Shown piece by piece: positions 5,561-57,276 of a DNA stretch of 64,000 nucleotides; position 1 is the stretch's first letter, and each line of letters opens with the position of its first letter. This DNA comes from Dehalogenimonas etheniformans (GTDB lineage: Bacteria > Chloroflexota > Dehalococcoidia > Dehalococcoidales > Dehalococcoidaceae). The translations under genes and the position numbers were made by a program. Where the stretch lies: the NCBI RefSeq assembly GCF_014672715.2, contig NZ_CP058566.2, positions 806,001 to 870,000 of the forward strand. The letters are read 5' to 3'. The notes under the pieces were generated by a model. The model was not told where the DNA came from. It made no database searches and saw only the letters and a list, made by a program, of their open reading frames with translations.

Positions 5561-7978
5561 CTAATCAATTTTTATCTGCAACAACCTGCCTAGCGTTCCG
5601 AAGGATGTTAGCCAGTCTTTGAAGGCCGGTTTGTCCTTGCGCCCGATGTAGATGTTTTGGAAAATGGCGAAATAAAGGTTTTGGACTCGCCACAGGTTGG
5701 GGAATAATACAAAATCGTTAAACAACTCGAGCAATCCGATGGCTCTGGTCATTTCCTCCGGATCATCGGGAGCATCGATAAGCGCCAGTAAAATGTTCTC
5801 CAGCTGCCCTGACAGGTAATACGAAACAGTCTCGCGTTCCGGTGAAATGCCCCACAACTTCATTTCATTCAACAGGGCTTCGATAGTCTCAAGGTCGGGG
5901 ACGTCGGCCTGGAGGGCATTTTTAAGGTCCATTCTGAGCACGAATTCCGCCGATGTTATGAACTGGGGCGGAGCTGTTTGTCCCAGAGAGTGCAGGAAGC
6001 GCATTGTTTCACGATGCCTTGAATAGATCGTCCGGTAGGCGGTTTCCGCTTCTTTCAAGGTGCCTGCAATGATACCGTCGACGATAATCGTGCGCTCATC
6101 TCCGAAAAGATGGCGTAAATCGAAAATGTGTCCGCCGAACCGGTTGTCCAGGAATTCACGGCAACCGGCGCAGTCTGTCGGGACGGCGAACGATTTCAAT
6201 TCGGATAGCAAATCAGCATAAACTTCAGGTGATTTGTATGGTTCCAAACCGACGGCAACCTGGTGGTCTCCCCAGAGCATGGCCCCAAAAATGAACCGTT
6301 GTGTCTCCAGGGTCACCGTTGAAGATATCTCTATGTCTCCGGACGAGATGCGCTGCCTGTCATCCCCAAATTGTTTTAGATCATTGATGGTCGCCGAAAA
6401 AGTGTAAAGTCCGGGTTCAGACAGTGATCCCTTGAATAACGTACTGATGGCAACATTCGCCGCCGCATCCTTGAGATCGCAGATCAGAGGCCGGACCTCC
6501 CGTTCAAAAATATCCCAACCGCTTCCGATAGACCGGTCATTGCTCTGGGCGGTCTCCAAGATATTCAAAAACTTTTTTTCAGGGGTTTTAGAAAACAGCT
6601 GATTTGCCAGTTGTAAGACTCGACCGGCTTGCTTCATCACCAGTATCGATTCAAGGCCGCCGATGTCGTCGAAAAACCAACCGCAGCTGGTGTAAATAGC
6701 CATCAGGTGTCGCTGGAGTTCCATCAATCTCAGGACCCGCACTTTTTCAGAGGATGATAGTTCCTTCAAGCTGTATTGCTTCAAAAAAGCATCGACCACG
6801 CCCGGGTTTCGATCAGCGATAACCTCTTGATAGGCATTCCGAGCCGCCCACGGGTCGGCCAGGAACTGCCCGGCATCCTTTTCAAACATGGGGTTCAGGC
6901 TGTCCCGAAGCAGGTCCATGGCTTTTCTTAAAGGCTCGCGCCAATGCTGATTCCAGTCCGGGTGGAACCCCGTTGAACAGCAGCAACCGCTTCGCCACCG
7001 CTCCACACCGTGTTCGCAACTCCACGACGAGTTTTCGATAATTTCCACTTCTGCGGCAGGAGGATGATTTTCGAGGTATTCGGCCATATTGGTGATTTTA
7101 ATGCCAAGTCCGCTTAGCTTATCGAAGGCATAAGCCAGAGCCATTTCGCCGAAACGGCGGTGGTGGCCATATGTTTCGCCATCGGTGGCGATGGTGATCA
7201 GGGCGGGAACTGAACCTTTACCGTAGGCTTCCAGGATACGGTTGGCAAGCAGATCGCCGTTTTGGAGCAACGATCCGAAGGCTACACCTTTGGATAACTC
7301 GGGGTGATAGAAGAAAATCGACATTGAACGCCCCGACGGCATACGGCAAATATAAGGCTGGTTGGTGTCGATAACGCCCCTGGCAGGATGCCATGAGCCC
7401 CGCGGGTCTTTCACCCGGGAAGCTTGATGCGGAGCGAGCACGGTGAACTTGATACCATGGCTTGACATAATATCCAGGGTTTCAAGATCCACCGCCGTTT
7501 CCGGGAGCCACATGCCTTCCGGTTGCCGCCCGAAACGGCGCCTAAAGTCGGAGACGCCCCAGATGACCTGGGTCTCCTTATCGGGGCGGCTAGCCAGAGG
7601 CATGATAATGTGGTTATAAGCCTGCGCAAGGGCTGAACCGTGACCCGAATATTCGGGGGCGTTCTCACGGTCAGAATCTGTGATTGCCGTGTAAACTTCC
7701 GGGTGATTGGCTTCAAGCCACGTTAAGAGCGTAGGCCCGAAATTGAAGGAGAACCTCGAATAATTGTTCACGATCGAAACAATCTGATTCGATCCGTCGA
7801 GGATCCGGGCTGCAAGGTTGACCGCATAACACTCGTCGGTAACGCGTTCGTTCCAGTCATGGTATGGAGCCGCCGATTTTTCTGTCTCCACGGCTTCCAG
7901 CCAGGGATTTTCCCGAGGCGGTTGATAGAAATGACCGTGGACGCATAGGTACCTGGCAGGTGAATCAACCAATGTCAA
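5561..7978 (-). CDS. GH57 alpha-glucan hydrolase/transferase with DUF3536
   Basis: The 805-residue protein opens with a glycoside hydrolase family 57 fold: VHGHFYQPPRENPW near residue 13, FNFGPTLLTWLE near 79, the GMWLPETAVD loop near 155 and SSHGIKFTVLAPHQ near 170. The C-terminal half, about residues 330-800, is the long DUF3536-type region seen in bacterial GH57 proteins annotated as alpha-amylase or alpha-mannosidase. GH57 enzymes act on alpha-1,4 (sometimes alpha-1,6) glucans with retention; the exact activity is not visible. Its start overlaps malQ by 14 nt on the same strand, and glycogen phosphorylase is divergent just beyond, so cytosolic glycogen turnover is the likely role. No signal peptide is evident. 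Confidence 0.88.
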   Translation of the reverse strand: MTLVDSPARYLCVHGHFYQPPRENPWLEAVETEKSAAPYHDWNERVTDECYAVNLAARILDGSNQIVSIVNNYSRFSFNFGPTLLTWLEANHPEVYTAITDSDRENAPEYSGHGSALAQAYNHIIMPLASRPDKETQVIWGVSDFRRRFGRQPEGMWLPETAVDLETLDIMSSHGIKFTVLAPHQASRVKDPRGSWHPARGVIDTNQPYICRMPSGRSMSIFFYHPELSKGVAFGSLLQNGDLLANRILEAYGKGSVPALITIATDGETYGHHRRFGEMALAYAFDKLSGLGIKITNMAEYLENHPPAAEVEIIENSSWSCEHGVERWRSGCCCSTGFHPDWNQHWREPLRKAMDLLRDSLNPMFEKDAGQFLADPWAARNAYQEVIADRNPGVVDAFLKQYSLKELSSSEKVRVLRLMELQRHLMAIYTSCGWFFDDIGGLESILVMKQAGRVLQLANQLFSKTPEKKFLNILETAQSNDRSIGSGWDIFEREVRPLICDLKDAAANVAISTLFKGSLSEPGLYTFSATINDLKQFGDDRQRISSGDIEISSTVTLETQRFIFGAMLWGDHQVAVGLEPYKSPEVYADLLSELKSFAVPTDCAGCREFLDNRFGGHIFDLRHLFGDERTIIVDGIIAGTLKEAETAYRTIYSRHRETMRFLHSLGQTAPPQFITSAEFVLRMDLKNALQADVPDLETIEALLNEMKLWGISPERETVSYYLSGQLENILLALIDAPDDPEEMTRAIGLLELFNDFVLFPNLWRVQNLYFAIFQNIYIGRKDKPAFKDWLTSFGTLGRLLQIKID

Positions 7979-48590: not shown

Positions 48591-48612
48591 TTTATCTGCT
48601 TTGGTATCCCTT

Positions 48613-48645
48613 GCCCGAGGGCTACAACAGCCCTCGGGCGTTTTT
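48613..48645 (+). terminator. rho-independent terminator
   Basis: GCCCGAGGGCT at 48613-48623, loop ACAAC, AGCCCTCGGGC at 48629-48639, then GTTTTT. It ends the aspS-tig-clpP unit before the convergent kinase gene. Confidence 0.9.
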
Positions 48646-48660: not shown

Positions 48661-51600
48661 TCAATCCGGATTCGGAGATAGCACACGATCTACCATCGTT
48701 TGAACGGCAGATTGGTCGAACGGTTTTGTAAGCACTTCGAGGCGATGCTTTGAGATGAATGCCTGGACATCCTCTCCAAGGGCATCGCCGGTGATGACAA
48801 TCACCCTCCCTTCAAATTCGGGTTTTTGCGAGATAATTTCCCGGTACAGAGCCATACCGCTTGTGCCGGGCATCCTCAAATCCATAAGAATAATATCGTA
48901 TGGGCTCGATCTTATCAGTTCGAGCGCTTGTTGGGCGTTTCCCGCTACGTCAATAATCCTATTTTGGTCAGAGAGAGATTGCCTTAATAATCGCTGGATA
49001 GAAATTTCGTCGTCGATGACGAGTACCCTGATGTTCGAGTTAGTTCGGCGGGAAACGGTAGTCACCGGATCTAGCAGAACGTTTTCAGATTCTGAGTTAA
49101 GAGGCAATTCGATCGTAAATGTGGCGCCACGCCCTAGCTCGCTGGCTATATCGATACTCCCACCGTGCTCCAGGATTATAGACCGGGAAATTGATAGCCC
49201 GAGGCCGGTGCCTTCTCCGGGGCTCTTGGTCGTGAAAAACGGTTGGAATAGCTTAGGTAGAACTTCCGGTTCGATCCCCGGTCCGTTATCGCTGAACACG
49301 ATTCGCAAGTGATCGCTGATTTTCTTGGCGGAGATGGTAATAACGCCGGTATGCCCGGTCTTTTTGATGGCGTGCTCAGCGTTAACAATTAAATTCAAAA
49401 ACACCTGCTGCAGTTGACCGGGATCGGCGACTATCCAGGGTAGGTCATCCTGGTAATTTTTGACGACATCTATTCCAGCCGTCCTGAGCACATAATTTCG
49501 GAGTTCGAGGGTATTGTCGATAAGTTCGGTGACACTCAAGCTTGTTTTGAAAGGTTTTGTTTGGCGGGCAAATGTCAGCATCCGCTTTACGATTTCCGCC
49601 ACCCTTTTGCTGCCGTCGGCGATTACCTTAACCTCTTCTTTTAACTCATCCGGGATATCCTCGGAAAGCATCAGTTCAGCGTAACCCAAGACTCCGGTAA
49701 GGGGGTTATTGATTTCATGTGCTATGCCCGCAGCCATTTCCCCAACGGCAGCTAGCCGACTCGATAGTTCCGCCTTTTCTTTCAATCTCTGTTGTTCGGC
49801 TTCGGCGTTCTTGACGGCAGTGACATCGCGGGCAATATGCACGTATCGTCCGGAAGATTTTCCATCGTTATTGAGCGTTGAAATATTGATCTGGTACACG
49901 CAGCCGCATCTGGCGATCTCACTGCTAGGACCACACGCTTTCCCCGAAGAGAAGCCGGGACAGCTCTCCGGGGGTGCATCCGTATTGTGCATCAGTTCAT
50001 AGCACTTTTTGCCGATGGTCTGGGCGGGAGATAATCCTAATTTATCTGCCATTGCTCGGTTGACCCTGATGATGTTATGGTCAGCGTCCAAAATGCAAAT
50101 CAAATCTGGGATAGAGTCGAAAGTGCTCTCCCATTCCTGCTTGGCGTTGAGGATGGCCTGCTCGTGGCGTCTTCGTTCTGAAATATCTCTCTCGGCGATT
50201 AATATGCCTCGCAATGAAACGGCTGCCACCGAGGCCAAACCCTGGATGAGATAAAAATCGGAGCCGTTAAATTCCTGGCGTGAGGTTTTTCCCGATATGA
50301 ACAACACGCCAACTTCCTTGTCCGCGGCTACTAGGGGTATCACAAAGGCAATATCCGGATTTGGTGTGTCCGCTAGATTTGGGAATTCTTTACCGACGTT
50401 CCGGCGAACAATGAGGCTCAGCAAATCACGTTGTCTGGATTCAGTAGCAAAAATCCCCCTGGCCGCCCCCACCTCGAATGAGCCGGTGTCTGTGGCAATG
50501 AACAGGGAGGCTCCGGCAAGGTTGAGCGCGCTCATGGGTGCATCGATAATCAGGGAAGATGCGACTTCTTTATCGCTTGTAGCGCTCAATGAAGTGCTTA
50601 AATTCTGGATCGTTTTTCGATAATCGAAGCGGTCTTTGTAAAACAACTTATCGATCATCGTCTCGACGAGGTTTTTGATGGGGCCGAGCAAAAACACAGC
50701 TAATGCGGATAGTCCCAGAGCTAAAATGAAGCGTTCAAAGAAACCCGGAGCGATGCCGCTAGAAAATACCAGGGCGAATGCTGCCCAAATAAGCATAGCC
50801 AGGATGATAGTGATCACAGCGTAGATAAAGCTGCGCCGTATAACAACTTCTATTTCGAGTAATTGTTTAGCCACAACGGCATAGCCGAGAGACAAGGGGA
50901 TAAATGACAGGAAAGCCAGTCCTACATCTGAAGGCAGAACTACCGCTCCGGTGACGGCTGCAGGAATCGCGTTTAATGCAACAAATGGCACTAATCCAAA
51001 AACACAGCCGATTAGAACAATTTTCATCTGTTGGCGGGTCTGGGGTAATTGAGCCCGGACATAGTTATAAATGGCGACTCCCACTACCCCGAGAAAACCC
51101 ATTCCGTAACTGAGGAGTCTGAACATCCGGAATTCGGGAAGCGGTTGGCCGTTTGCGTAACCAATTATTGGGTACATAACGATCGCAATCGCAGGGATTA
51201 CATAGATTATCAGTATTCGTGGATCATTGCGGAGCCAGGCTCTTTCGTCAGGTAAAATCAAAAAGAAATGCAATAACAACCATGGGCCAATCAGGGCGGC
51301 CAATACCGCAGGATAAGAAGAAATGGGGATTAGTCGTTCAGCCGCTAAGGTTGAACTGAGTGCTACTGAGAGTGTTGTTCCGGAAAGAAGAAGAATGAGA
51401 GCTGCAGTGTTATCAGGTTTCTTTGACAATATGTAAAAGCCGGTTAAGAAGAATGCGGCACTAAGCACAAACCAAGATATAATCTCGAAAAACGATTTTC
51501 TCGATTGTGGATCAACGTTGATTTCAGAAGAAAGAATTTGTCCGTTGGGCTGTAACACTTTGAGTTGTTCAATCAGCCTGATAGAACCAGATTTTTCGAA

Positions 51601-51876
51601 TCTTTGCAAGAACGTATCGGCTGACTGTGCATTCACTTCGAGCGGTTTATCACCAACTTGAATCCCAGCAGAAAAAGCAGTGCCATGACGGTCCACACTC
51701 TCTATGAGCCATCCATGCTCTCCAAATGAAAGGACCGCTCCCATATAAGGTTTGGTAGCGCAGAGGGCAAAGAAGATTAATGAAACTACCAGAAAAAAGA
51801 AGGATACGCCGATAATGGCGTTGTTAACGATTTTACGTCGTTTTCCAATCAGGTTGTTGTGAGCTAGGATTGACAA
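48661..51876 (-). CDS. ComP-like hybrid sensor histidine kinase
   Basis: A 1071-residue membrane hybrid kinase. Order: TM1 (residues about 20-40), extracytoplasmic PDZ-like domain (48-112, with GWLIESVDRHGTAFSAGIQV), about nine further TMs (133-398), GAF-like region (420-560), PAS (580-690), HisKA with His720 in GIAHEINNPL, HATPase (N-box NLIVNAEHAI, DNGPG at 863-867, GTGLGLS), and a C-terminal receiver with Asp999. The segment IPLSLGYAVVAKQL...IEVVIRR..IYA (326-353) and the PDZ-plus-TM layout match what I recall of Bacillus ComP; the kinase half does not (ComP is HisKA_3 without receiver). TTG start at 51876, AAGGG just upstream. Last gene of an operon with a ComX-like peptide and a prenyl synthase; likely sensor of the modified peptide. 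Confidence 0.85.
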   Translation of the reverse strand: MSILAHNNLIGKRRKIVNNAIIGVSFFFLVVSLIFFALCATKPYMGAVLSFGEHGWLIESVDRHGTAFSAGIQVGDKPLEVNAQSADTFLQRFEKSGSIRLIEQLKVLQPNGQILSSEINVDPQSRKSFFEIISWFVLSAAFFLTGFYILSKKPDNTAALILLLSGTTLSVALSSTLAAERLIPISSYPAVLAALIGPWLLLHFFLILPDERAWLRNDPRILIIYVIPAIAIVMYPIIGYANGQPLPEFRMFRLLSYGMGFLGVVGVAIYNYVRAQLPQTRQQMKIVLIGCVFGLVPFVALNAIPAAVTGAVVLPSDVGLAFLSFIPLSLGYAVVAKQLLEIEVVIRRSFIYAVITIILAMLIWAAFALVFSSGIAPGFFERFILALGLSALAVFLLGPIKNLVETMIDKLFYKDRFDYRKTIQNLSTSLSATSDKEVASSLIIDAPMSALNLAGASLFIATDTGSFEVGAARGIFATESRQRDLLSLIVRRNVGKEFPNLADTPNPDIAFVIPLVAADKEVGVLFISGKTSRQEFNGSDFYLIQGLASVAAVSLRGILIAERDISERRRHEQAILNAKQEWESTFDSIPDLICILDADHNIIRVNRAMADKLGLSPAQTIGKKCYELMHNTDAPPESCPGFSSGKACGPSSEIARCGCVYQINISTLNNDGKSSGRYVHIARDVTAVKNAEAEQQRLKEKAELSSRLAAVGEMAAGIAHEINNPLTGVLGYAELMLSEDIPDELKEEVKVIADGSKRVAEIVKRMLTFARQTKPFKTSLSVTELIDNTLELRNYVLRTAGIDVVKNYQDDLPWIVADPGQLQQVFLNLIVNAEHAIKKTGHTGVITISAKKISDHLRIVFSDNGPGIEPEVLPKLFQPFFTTKSPGEGTGLGLSISRSIILEHGGSIDIASELGRGATFTIELPLNSESENVLLDPVTTVSRRTNSNIRVLVIDDEISIQRLLRQSLSDQNRIIDVAGNAQQALELIRSSPYDIILMDLRMPGTSGMALYREIISQKPEFEGRVIVITGDALGEDVQAFISKHRLEVLTKPFDQSAVQTMVDRVLSPNPD

Positions 51877-51894
51877 GGCTACCCTTATCCGTTA

Positions 51895-52848
51895 TTAGTT
51901 TAGGAATTCCATCAATTGACGAACCGAAATCCCACGATGCTCGAGAGCATAGTGTGTTTCTTTTGCCAATTCTCGATGAAAGCTCATTTTAAGGGAAGTA
52001 TATTGAATTCCACCTGAACTAAATAACACATTTTTGACCTGGTCTGTGCTGACTTCATTCAAACATGAAGGATTAAAGGCTTTCTCGAGAATTGATCTGG
52101 ATTTGTCATCTGAATGAGAGAATCCAAAAAACATAGGCAAAGTTGGCTTTCGTCTGATGATGTCCTTTTTGGTTATTACACCGACAATGTCGTTGCTAAA
52201 TTGGGCCATAATTCCTAAGTTTTGGCCAAATACTGAGAATAAGTCAACCACCATGTTGTCAATAGTTGATAAGGCTGCACCAGCGTGACAACAGCATTCA
52301 ATTTGCGAGGCGGATTTGAGTTTGACAATGTCTAAATATTGACCCTCATTAAGAACTGATCGTGCAAGTGAAAGATCGAGGTGCTGACCGATGCAAGCGT
52401 TCGTAAAAAACGAATTTATTTTTTCAATCACACGGAGCGTTGTTTCGTTATTAATTCCGCGATTATTCAATCGAGTTAGTGCTTTTTCAGCCAAAATTAA
52501 TAGAGTTGTTCCGGTGTTAGCGGCGATCGCGGTACCATATTTTGAAGATATAGAATCTGACACATCTGAATCTTCAATGTCATCGAAAACGTCACCCGCC
52601 GCCATTAATAATTGAATGGCGGCGGCTGCTGGTACAACGTGTTCGCAATTTCCCGAAATCGAATCAGCTACTACAAGTGGGAGTAACGGCCAAGGTTTTT
52701 GAGAATTAGTTGATGTAGGATCTCGGCCCTCGACCATAAGGATATTCCTGATTAATTCAAACAAATCTGTCGTGTTACACAAAGGAGTTAGAATTTCTTC
52801 TAACTCCTCGTTGAGCAATTGTTTTTGTTTCTCTAATTTAGACGACAA
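51895..52848 (-). CDS. ComQ-like polyprenyl synthase
   Basis: A 317-residue isoprenyl-diphosphate-synthase-fold protein. First Asp-rich motif intact: GDVFDDIEDSD, DDxxD at residues 89-93. GQHLDL (154-159) and KLKSASQIE (177-185) match family positions. The second motif is degenerate: QFSNDIVGV (Asn-Asp at 219-220) in place of DDxxD, followed by KKDIIRRKPTLP. One intact and one degraded motif fits a peptide prenyltransferase such as ComQ better than a chain-elongating synthase. TTG start at 52848 without a clear ribosome site, 22 nt after the peptide stop; the kinase follows by 18 nt. The gene is notably AT-rich (19 G+C in the 60 bases from 52441). A housekeeping or quinone-chain synthase is the main alternative. 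Confidence 0.8.
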   Translation of the reverse strand: MSSKLEKQKQLLNEELEEILTPLCNTTDLFELIRNILMVEGRDPTSTNSQKPWPLLPLVVADSISGNCEHVVPAAAAIQLLMAAGDVFDDIEDSDVSDSISSKYGTAIAANTGTTLLILAEKALTRLNNRGINNETTLRVIEKINSFFTNACIGQHLDLSLARSVLNEGQYLDIVKLKSASQIECCCHAGAALSTIDNMVVDLFSVFGQNLGIMAQFSNDIVGVITKKDIIRRKPTLPMFFGFSHSDDKSRSILEKAFNPSCLNEVSTDQVKNVLFSSGGIQYTSLKMSFHRELAKETHYALEHRGISVRQLMEFLN

Positions 52849-52870
52849 TTTTGTGTGTCTGAGTGTTTAG

Positions 52871-53080
52871 TTATAACCATCCGGCCATAGGCCCAATGTT
52901 CGACTGTAATGAAACGCCATCGGCGGTAATAAGGCCGGTCTTAGCGTGCAAAGAGAGTACAGCGTTCTTTTCGGTGGCAGTCAAATCCATCGCAGAGATG
53001 AACTTCTCGGGATCAGCCTGGAATTCTTTCTTGGTTTCCTCGTTGCTGAAGATCTTTTTTACAAGTTCCGCTAGTTCCAC
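52871..53080 (-). CDS. ComX-like pheromone precursor peptide
   Basis: A 69-residue peptide encoded first in the operon. Charged helical N-terminus (ELVKKIFSNEETKKEF), ADPEKF near 22-27, LTATEKNAVLSLH near 33-45, then a small-residue tail ending NIGPMAGWL with Trp68 as the penultimate residue. ComX precursors have this plan, about 55-75 residues with a Trp 1-4 residues from the C-terminus that ComQ prenylates before cleavage. GTG start at 53080 with GGAGGAG 7 nt upstream and a promoter 31 nt before. Nif11-like or other RiPP leader peptides are alternatives; lack of a GG site and the ComQ/ComP-like neighbours favour ComX. Confidence 0.72.
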   Translation of the reverse strand: MELAELVKKIFSNEETKKEFQADPEKFISAMDLTATEKNAVLSLHAKTGLITADGVSLQSNIGPMAGWL

Positions 53081-53110
53081 TAAGGCTCCTCCTTCGATAA
53101 TTTGTTAAGG

Positions 53111-53139
53111 ATTATAAACTTAAGGTGGTGAATCGTCAA
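53111..53139 (-). promoter_or_regulatory. sigma-70 promoter of the ComXQP-like operon
   Basis: On the minus strand TTGACG (53134-53139), 17-nt spacer, TATAAT (53111-53116), about 31 nt before the peptide GTG. Near consensus and correctly spaced. It overlaps the 3' end of the upstream 81-residue frame. Confidence 0.75.
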
Positions 53140-56067: not shown

Positions 56068-57276
56068 ATGGCTACGTTAACCGCTCCTGCCCGGAAACTG
56101 TCCCGGCTCAACGGGGTGCAGATCGCTGCGGCGGCGGTACGAGGGCGGGCATTCGGTGGCAAGCTGAGGTTGTATCTCAGCATTTTCCGGTTCCTGACCC
56201 TTATCCTGGCGTTGAGCCAGGTGAGCGGAGTGGTCCCCAAGGGTTCAATTTCGATTGCCGGCGTTATCATCGCCGCCTCGGCGTATACCGTGATCAAATT
56301 CTTTACCCCTGTTACGGCCAGGAACTACCTAGCAAGCCAAGCACTATTGGCGACCGATCTCGTTTTCTGCGCGGCGATGGTCTGGGTGACCGGCGGCCTC
56401 AGCAGCCCGTTCCTCCTTTACACCCTTACTCCGGTACTGGCGGCATCGTTCTTCTACGAGTCCCGGATGGCGCTTACCGTGGCGGTGGCGTCCATCCTAG
56501 ACATCCTACTGACCCAACTGGTCAACCCCTTTTACCAATTGACCTCCGGGCCGCTGGAATTCAGCTTTTTCTTTATATACATAGTCGCCGTCAGCCTTTC
56601 GGCGTCGCTGCCGTACCTAGTCAATTTCAACCTTCAGAGGCGGATGCAGGGCGAATACGTCGCCGAGGAGAGGAGCCGCCTGTCACGTGAACTGCACGAC
56701 GGCACGGTGCAGGTTCTGGCGGCGCTCAACTGGCAAGCGCAGTTAGTCGAGCGAGACCTGAGCCGCCAGGGGATCTCGCTGCCCTCGCTCAGCCACCTGC
56801 TCCACCTATCCAAGGAGTCTCAATCCGAAGCCCGGGAAGCCCTGCAGCTCCTTCGGGACTACACCGAATCTGGCAAGTTCGTGGAGCACCTTAAAACCTA
56901 CGCCGACCGGTTTAAACAGGACAGCGGGATAGAATACAAGATGGACCTTCTGCCCCTGGAACCAAAGCTGGAGCCCCAGGTGGAACTCCAACTGCTGCGC
57001 ATCTGCCAGGAAGCGATGAACAACATCCGCAAGCACGCCCGCGCGCGGCACGTCTGCGTAAACATGATCCGTTCACCCAAAAACTACCTGACCGTGACCA
57101 TCGAGGACGACGGCCTGGGATTCGACCTTGACGCCGGACTGCGGACCTCAGGGTTCCAGGGGCACGGGCTCAACGTGATGAGGGAGCGGGCGGAGACGGT
57201 GGGGGGCTACCTGCAGATGGACAGCCAGTTGGGCAAGGGGACGGTCATTACCGTGGTCGTCCCGTTGAACCGGTAA
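56068..57276 (+). CDS. orphan sensor histidine kinase, DegS/NarL-partner type
   Basis: A 402-residue kinase. Five or six membrane helices occupy residues about 35-195. A HisKA_3 domain has the phospho-His in SRLSRELHDGTVQVLAAL near 208-225; the HATPase domain has EAMNNIRKHARARHV (N-box), DDGLGFD and GHGLNVMRERAE. This is the HPK7 class that normally pairs with LuxR/NarL-type regulators, but no response regulator is adjacent. ATG start at 56068. A small Cys protein lies downstream on the same strand, 225 nt away. Signal unknown. Confidence 0.92.
   Translation: MATLTAPARKLSRLNGVQIAAAAVRGRAFGGKLRLYLSIFRFLTLILALSQVSGVVPKGSISIAGVIIAASAYTVIKFFTPVTARNYLASQALLATDLVFCAAMVWVTGGLSSPFLLYTLTPVLAASFFYESRMALTVAVASILDILLTQLVNPFYQLTSGPLEFSFFFIYIVAVSLSASLPYLVNFNLQRRMQGEYVAEERSRLSRELHDGTVQVLAALNWQAQLVERDLSRQGISLPSLSHLLHLSKESQSEAREALQLLRDYTESGKFVEHLKTYADRFKQDSGIEYKMDLLPLEPKLEPQVELQLLRICQEAMNNIRKHARARHVCVNMIRSPKNYLTVTIEDDGLGFDLDAGLRTSGFQGHGLNVMRERAETVGGYLQMDSQLGKGTVITVVVPLNR

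Follow-up and report, generated by a model that had tools for sequence, protein, structure and literature searches.

The 64,000-nucleotide window analysed here (contig NZ_CP058566.2, positions 806,001–870,000; the Dehalogenimonas etheniformans genome is a single contig of 2.07 Mb) contains on its minus strand an operon of three genes, here named X, Q and P, which probably represents a divergent ComQXP-type system signalling through a prenyl-tryptophan peptide. X (52871..53080, GTG start) encodes a 69-aa precursor peptide with a LigA/Os17-like leader and a variable core, Q (51895..52848, TTG start) a predicted tryptophan prenyltransferase of 317 aa with the trans-isoprenyl-synthase fold, and P (48661..51876, TTG start) a hybrid sensor kinase of 1071 aa. 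The genes follow one another in the order X-Q-P, separated by 22 nt (X-Q) and 18 nt (Q-P), and the operon ends opposite clpP. A first-pass annotation, made from the letters alone, had described the region 48661-53139, which correctly runs from where P ends to a point 59 nt before X, as a complete ComQXP-like quorum-sensing set. Its promoter, its 69-aa peptide ending GWL and both intergenic gaps are confirmed from the open reading frames and the sequence. The broader likeness holds for the co-conservation of the genes, the near-terminal tryptophan, the ComQ-like enzyme and the ComP-like sensor, but does not extend to the ComX family, a ComP-like kinase or ComA.

The trio is conserved as a unit. 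Among 343 Dehalococcoidia genomes sampled, a Q-type enzyme (profile expectation value, E < 1e-60) is encoded in 11 and the full-length sensor, with its PDZ domain and transmembrane segments, in 12, which include all 11 genomes with Q; sensor and Q are adjacent in 11/11, and 11 of the 12 full-length sensors adjoin Q. Fisher's test for this co-occurrence gives 7e-20, a value inflated because the genomes are related. No full-length sensor was found outside Dehalococcoidia in a sample of 400 Chloroflexota genomes, and the searches returned no close relatives on plasmids or viral contigs. The named loci with the same trio come from Dehalococcoidia and other Chloroflexota metagenome-assembled genomes, in agreement with the phylum proposed in the first-pass annotation, and complete loci keep the order X-Q-P. 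Across 84,980 species genomes scanned, the motif D[VI]FDD[ILV]ED was found in 30 relatives, all of them either Chloroflexota loci (11) or ComQ loci of Bacillaceae (19). Within the genus of the window, the trio occupies the same tig-clpP site in four of the eight genomes searched (G000, G004, G007 and G003), and is absent from the other four as well as from three genomes of another genus of the same family. The G003 trio (L040 4451-9369) looks decayed, with a transposase gene inside Q, a seemingly frame-shifted start of P and an intact X. The Q frame of L049 (~5970-6873) shows no ATG, GTG or TTG in its first ~100 codons, and may use another start codon or contain a sequence error. The sole full-length sensor without X and Q is that of G047 (L132 3525-5930), where a PDZ and transmembrane receptor kinase is followed by a receiver protein; this orphan is possibly an eavesdropper or a remnant.

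X is a real gene, as it is under purifying selection against its G004 counterpart (pN 0.087, pS 0.61). It is present in a single copy in the genome and, among 13 genomes tested, only where Q and P occur. The peptide ends in NIGPMAGWL, where the penultimate Trp68 is the predicted prenylation site; the C-terminal core, with its boundary inferred from the alignment, would comprise approximately these residues and the stop codon (52871..52900). In the alignment of 15 homologues, P24, L33, A40 and W68 are invariant, and the tryptophan is the last residue, the penultimate one or up to six from the C-terminal end in 15/15, while the residues flanking it vary; it is the final residue only in G138/L050. 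The peptide family with a conserved terminal tryptophan anticipated by the annotation is thus found. The leader is similar to those of the LigA-like type (PF07746, E 8e-4; NCBIfam Os17, 5e-4), each match lying below the curated cut-off, and is weakly similar to SonA in a PDB search (E 0.02), while a Pfam search of X gave no match to NHase_alpha. The Bacilli matches of the X profile (L140-L142) were rejected as other leader peptides without tryptophan; these LigA-like small peptides share the motif LSGAHS, contain a cysteine near the end and form a different precursor family.

Q matches polyprenyl_synt (PF00348, E 5.6e-23) and its top NCBIfam matches are prenyl synthases, consistent with the prenyl synthase with one DDxxD reported in the first-pass annotation; the single DDxxD is the first Asp-rich motif, D89-D93, in the context VFDDIEDSD (52570..52584). 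These matches would also suit an ordinary geranylgeranyl diphosphate (GGPP) synthase with a small protein and a sensor kinase as chance neighbours on either side, as would the structural model of Q (all-helical synthase fold, pLDDT 88), whose nearest solved folds are GGPP synthases. In farnesyl diphosphate synthases, the Lys and Arg of the motif GGKxxR and a pair of Arg residues that follows the first Asp motif bind the diphosphates, chiefly that of isopentenyl diphosphate (IPP). The 38 ordinary Chloroflexota synthases all retain these paired Arg residues and, where aligned, the GGKxxR Lys and Arg, but the Lys and the Arg pair are lost in 15/15 Q and 19/19 ComQ, and the Arg of GGKxxR is lost in all Q but one. 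Q and Bacillus ComQ also share a deletion of four residues (five in two Q) at the same place after the first Asp motif, as the spacing between the first Asp and the conserved Asn that follows it is 23 in 19/19 ComQ, 22-23 in 15/15 Q and 27 in the 36 measurable ordinary synthases. The HDD of this motif is replaced by FDD in 14/15 Q and 19/19 ComQ, the remaining Q having Leu. With the IPP-site residues lost in every member, the ComQ-type deletion present and Q strictly linked to X and P, an ordinary synthase is already contradicted and hardly credible.

The pseudo second Asp-rich motif is ND in all Q (N219-D220 in the window, 52189..52194, with the invariant Q216 just before it), and ComQ is known to require NDxxx or GDxxx at this position (PMC5331326). 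An unrooted tree separates the 38 ordinary synthases from Q and ComQ with support of 100/99, although it contains converging long branches and does not recover Q as one clade. The placing of Q and ComQ in a single clade is weakened, as the unrooted three-group split puts Q only outside the ordinary synthases; the two would fall together if the root lies among the latter. As to the grouping of the synthase queried by the annotation, Q does not lie among ordinary GGPP synthases and carries derived residues in common with ComQ. Q is thus a predicted tryptophan prenyltransferase of the ComQ type. The model of Q also resembles the tryptophan farnesyltransferase Ord1 (template modelling score ~0.7), and Q could accordingly be an aromatic prenyltransferase for another acceptor, such as free tryptophan or indole, with X as a small binding partner. 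This is very unlikely, however, as X stands beside every intact Q with an available flank and always keeps its near-terminal tryptophan while the residues around it vary.

P matches HisKA (PF00512; 49561..49746, with the phospho-acceptor His720), HATPase_c (49096..49425) and Response_reg (C-terminal receiver, 48691..49026) above the Pfam cut-offs, and contains a PAS and a weak GAF domain. The first-pass annotation had recognised a PDZ domain and a polytopic histidine kinase, but not the hybrid architecture with its C-terminal receiver. By hidden Markov model search the PDZ domain (51502..51741) lies below the cut-off (0.12), but both a profile comparison and the structural model back it; it is located between the first and second transmembrane segments and predicted to lie outside the cytoplasm. 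Hydropathy and the profile match to ComP place transmembrane segments 2-10 at 50674..51483. The sensor half of P is collinear with that of ComP over 325 columns, from the end of the first transmembrane segment through the PDZ domain to the last segments (E 1.6e-19), whereas the common seven-transmembrane kinases of Chloroflexota, used as a control, reach only E 2.8e-5. The PDZ regions of P-type sensors and ComP match when compared alone (E 8e-12), and ten hydrophobic stretches are found at near-equal spacing in both proteins, with the PDZ domain after the first. Beyond unspecific seven-transmembrane matches, a fold search with the sensor returned only PDZ proteases, among them CtpA and DegS. 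The PDZ domain of ComP has been modelled outside the cell and proposed to bind ComX (PMC9620489). In the comparison of the trio with ComX, ComQ and ComP suggested by the annotation, the ComQ-type residues and the ComP sensor half were recovered, but neither a PF05952 match for X nor the ComP kinase half.

Alleles of the operon diverge unevenly. Between G000 and G004, identity is 88-99% for the flanking genes, 91% for the kinase, 87% for X, 74% for the transmembrane segments, 53% for Q and 46% for the PDZ domain. The corresponding nonsynonymous divergence (dN), used as a guide because synonymous divergence is near saturation, is 0.45 for the PDZ domain, 0.38 for Q and 0.05 for the kinase. Bacillus ComP and the other pairs compared show a like order, with conservation lowest, or nearly so, in the PDZ domain and highest, or nearly so, in the kinase. 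G003 was excluded from these comparisons because its Q is split and the start of its P looks frame-shifted. Fast evolution of Q and the PDZ domain against a slow kinase is what alleles of a signal and its receptor show when they co-evolve, and is pherotype-like.

Taken together, these features suggest a mechanism. The LigA-like leader of the ribosomal precursor X would dock on Q, whose first Asp motif would hold a prenyl diphosphate and whose reaction would transfer the prenyl group to the indole of the near-terminal tryptophan rather than join it to IPP. After trimming, a short C-terminal peptide carrying the prenyl group would be exported, the PDZ domain and the ten transmembrane segments of P would sense it outside the cytoplasm, and the hybrid kinase would relay the signal. 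In relatives, the same sensor would drive either a plain kinase, with receiver proteins close by, or GAF and HD-GYP domains. Computation shows the presence, conservation and linkage of the genes, the loss of the IPP-site residues, the features in common with ComQ, the homology of the sensor half and the pherotype-like divergence. Prenylation of Trp68, cleavage and export, binding by the PDZ domain, quorum sensing and all target genes are what we infer here.

X and Q could instead make a prenylated ribosomally synthesized and post-translationally modified peptide (RiPP) with another purpose, such as an antimicrobial, a surfactant or an intracellular membrane signal, P sensing the product or envelope stress for self-regulation or immunity and not cell density. 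The RiPP-type leader of X would fit such a product, as would the retention of the receptor in G047 without X and Q, and prenyl-tryptophan RiPPs include PalX, for which no established biological role was found (PMC10853753). On the other hand, the loci inspected have neither a conserved transporter gene nor a conserved immunity gene adjoining the trio, and a ComP-homologous receptor fixed beside Q and diverging together with it has the look of a signal system, so this explanation is considered unlikely.

Several observations weigh against a ComQXP-type signalling operon. Despite the divergence of Q and the PDZ domain, the core of X is nearly constant (GPMAGWL in G000, GPMAGWF in G004), unlike in Bacillus pherotypes, where ComX diverges too. 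Homology of X to ComX is unsupported, as X gives no PF05952 match and the profile comparisons are not significant (P 0.006 and 0.036); a PF05952 search of the genome carries no weight here, as it gave no match in any control either. Chloroflexota commonly carry the domain that forms the transmembrane part of the P sensor, and the operon of the window encodes neither an exporter nor a protease, and neither ComA nor another DNA-binding output. ND in place of DD occurs also in some ordinary synthases of Dehalococcoidia, and the ND motif was therefore dropped as a diagnostic of Q; such ordinary-looking enzymes are those of L082, L083, L086, L090, L091 and L098. When PalQ-type relatives are added to the tree, PalQ (K4ZRG6) being represented by its relatives from L166-L195, ComQ joins PalQ on long branches, so that the tree does not single out a closest sister of Q. 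Set beside these points, the three ways in which the annotation might have failed, namely a trio without co-conservation, a peptide without a family sharing the terminal tryptophan and a synthase grouping with ordinary GGPP synthases, were all examined and none was encountered.

The output half of the receptor differs among relatives. A hybrid HisKA kinase with a receiver is encoded in the window, G004, G007, G044 and G064, and a plain HisKA kinase in G034, G086, G304 and G107, while the sensor is joined to GAF and HD-GYP domains with an intact HHE..(D/N)G.GYP motif in L049 (6900-9146), L050 (6973-9381) and L133 (787-3150). A receiver-HTH_17 or receiver-only protein lies near the trio in some relatives. 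The ComP-type receptor with its PDZ domain and ten transmembrane segments may be a module exchanged among kinases, hybrid kinases and HD-GYP domains; a prenyl-peptide signal would then directly control cyclic di-GMP breakdown, with no two-component relay, in some Chloroflexota, and the odds slightly favour this reading as a whole.

Upstream of X, a sigma-70-type promoter is recognised by consensus match only (TTGACG-17 bp-TATAAT, minus strand, 53111..53139; 11/12 consensus positions); it is the top-ranked of nine promoter-like sites, of which 6.3 are expected by shuffling. A ribosome-binding site AGGAGG (minus strand, 53088..53093) precedes the GTG start of X by 7 nt, and a terminator-like hairpin is predicted between clpP and the end of P (48612..48640). 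A second histidine kinase, of HisKA_3 type, is encoded 3 kb upstream of X on the opposite strand (56068-57276), and no response regulator was identified adjoining it.

Prenyl-tryptophan quorum sensing has so far been treated as a Firmicutes speciality, and the 2014 census, cited in the first-pass annotation as finding comQXPA only in Firmicutes, indeed states that there is none outside that phylum (PMC4008528). A 2017 review describes prenyl-tryptophan as a special modification that several Bacillus species make (PMC5331326), while a KEGG-based paper reports that Chloroflexi contain a ComP-ComA pair (PMC8895600). In the literature searched, no previous account of this kind of system in Chloroflexota was found, broader mining within the ChrPC work being possible, nor any of quorum sensing in organohalide-respiring bacteria. 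If the assignment is right, the co-conserved ComQ-like enzyme and ComP-like sensor of Dehalococcoidia would make the system far wider and add a version of it with a RiPP leader, would suggest peptide signalling in organohalide-respiring bacteria, and, through the HD-GYP receptors, would tie a prenyl-peptide signal to cyclic di-GMP.

Among known systems, ComQXPA of B. subtilis and its relatives shares with the operon a synthase-like modifier with FDDxED, the four-residue deletion, a lost IPP site and an ND second motif, a short precursor with a near-terminal tryptophan in a compact operon, and a receptor composed of one transmembrane segment, a PDZ domain and nine further segments, the modifier and sensor evolving rapidly and the kinase being conserved. 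It differs in gene order (Q-X-P-A against X-Q-P), in its precursor (ComX, PF05952, against the LigA-like X), in the ComP kinase (HisKA_3, PF07730, as seen in ComP of L053, against a HisKA hybrid with GAF, PAS and receiver domains) and in the adjacent ComA (receiver and LuxR-type helix-turn-helix), which has no counterpart in the operon; moreover, the host here belongs to Chloroflexota and some relatives have an HD-GYP output. Ord1 (PDB 9v4g) shares with Q the all-helical prenyl-transfer fold and a Gln before the second Asp motif, but acts on free tryptophan and is 18% identical to Q by structure alignment. Ordinary trans-isoprenyl diphosphate synthases are defined by the Lys and Arg of GGKxxR in the IPP site and the Arg after the first Asp motif, a pattern that Q lacks. 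The leaders of the borosin-type SonA and of LigA-like/Os17 precursors of the nitrile hydratase leader peptide (NHLP) clan have a weak profile likeness to that of X, but are served by a different modifying enzyme, and the core of X ends in tryptophan.

Large Bacilli genomes of one family, presumably Paenibacillaceae, encode NHLP-type precursors ending in or near tryptophan, with a synthase-like enzyme and a short histidine kinase as neighbours; L166-L195 contain many such precursors and represent a large PalXQP-like family, with which the published PalXQP cluster of Paenibacillus alvei agrees (PMC10853753). PalX-PalQ-PalP likewise has a RiPP precursor with a leader and a near-terminal tryptophan beside a synthase-like prenyltransferase and a histidine kinase, and Gly before Trp, reported to favour PalQ (PMC13290415), is found in X as AGW and GGW. 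However, the tryptophan is the very last residue in PalX and the penultimate one in the X of the window, the precursors of L166 and L181 have NHase_alpha leader matches that X lacks, the PalQ-like enzymes stand on a far branch (3.4, 100/100) and have no polyprenyl_synt Pfam match, and the kinases are ~440 aa long with no PDZ match. The system of the window would work like ComQXPA and PalXQP and has its enzyme features and sensor in common with ComQXPA, but belongs to neither as now defined.

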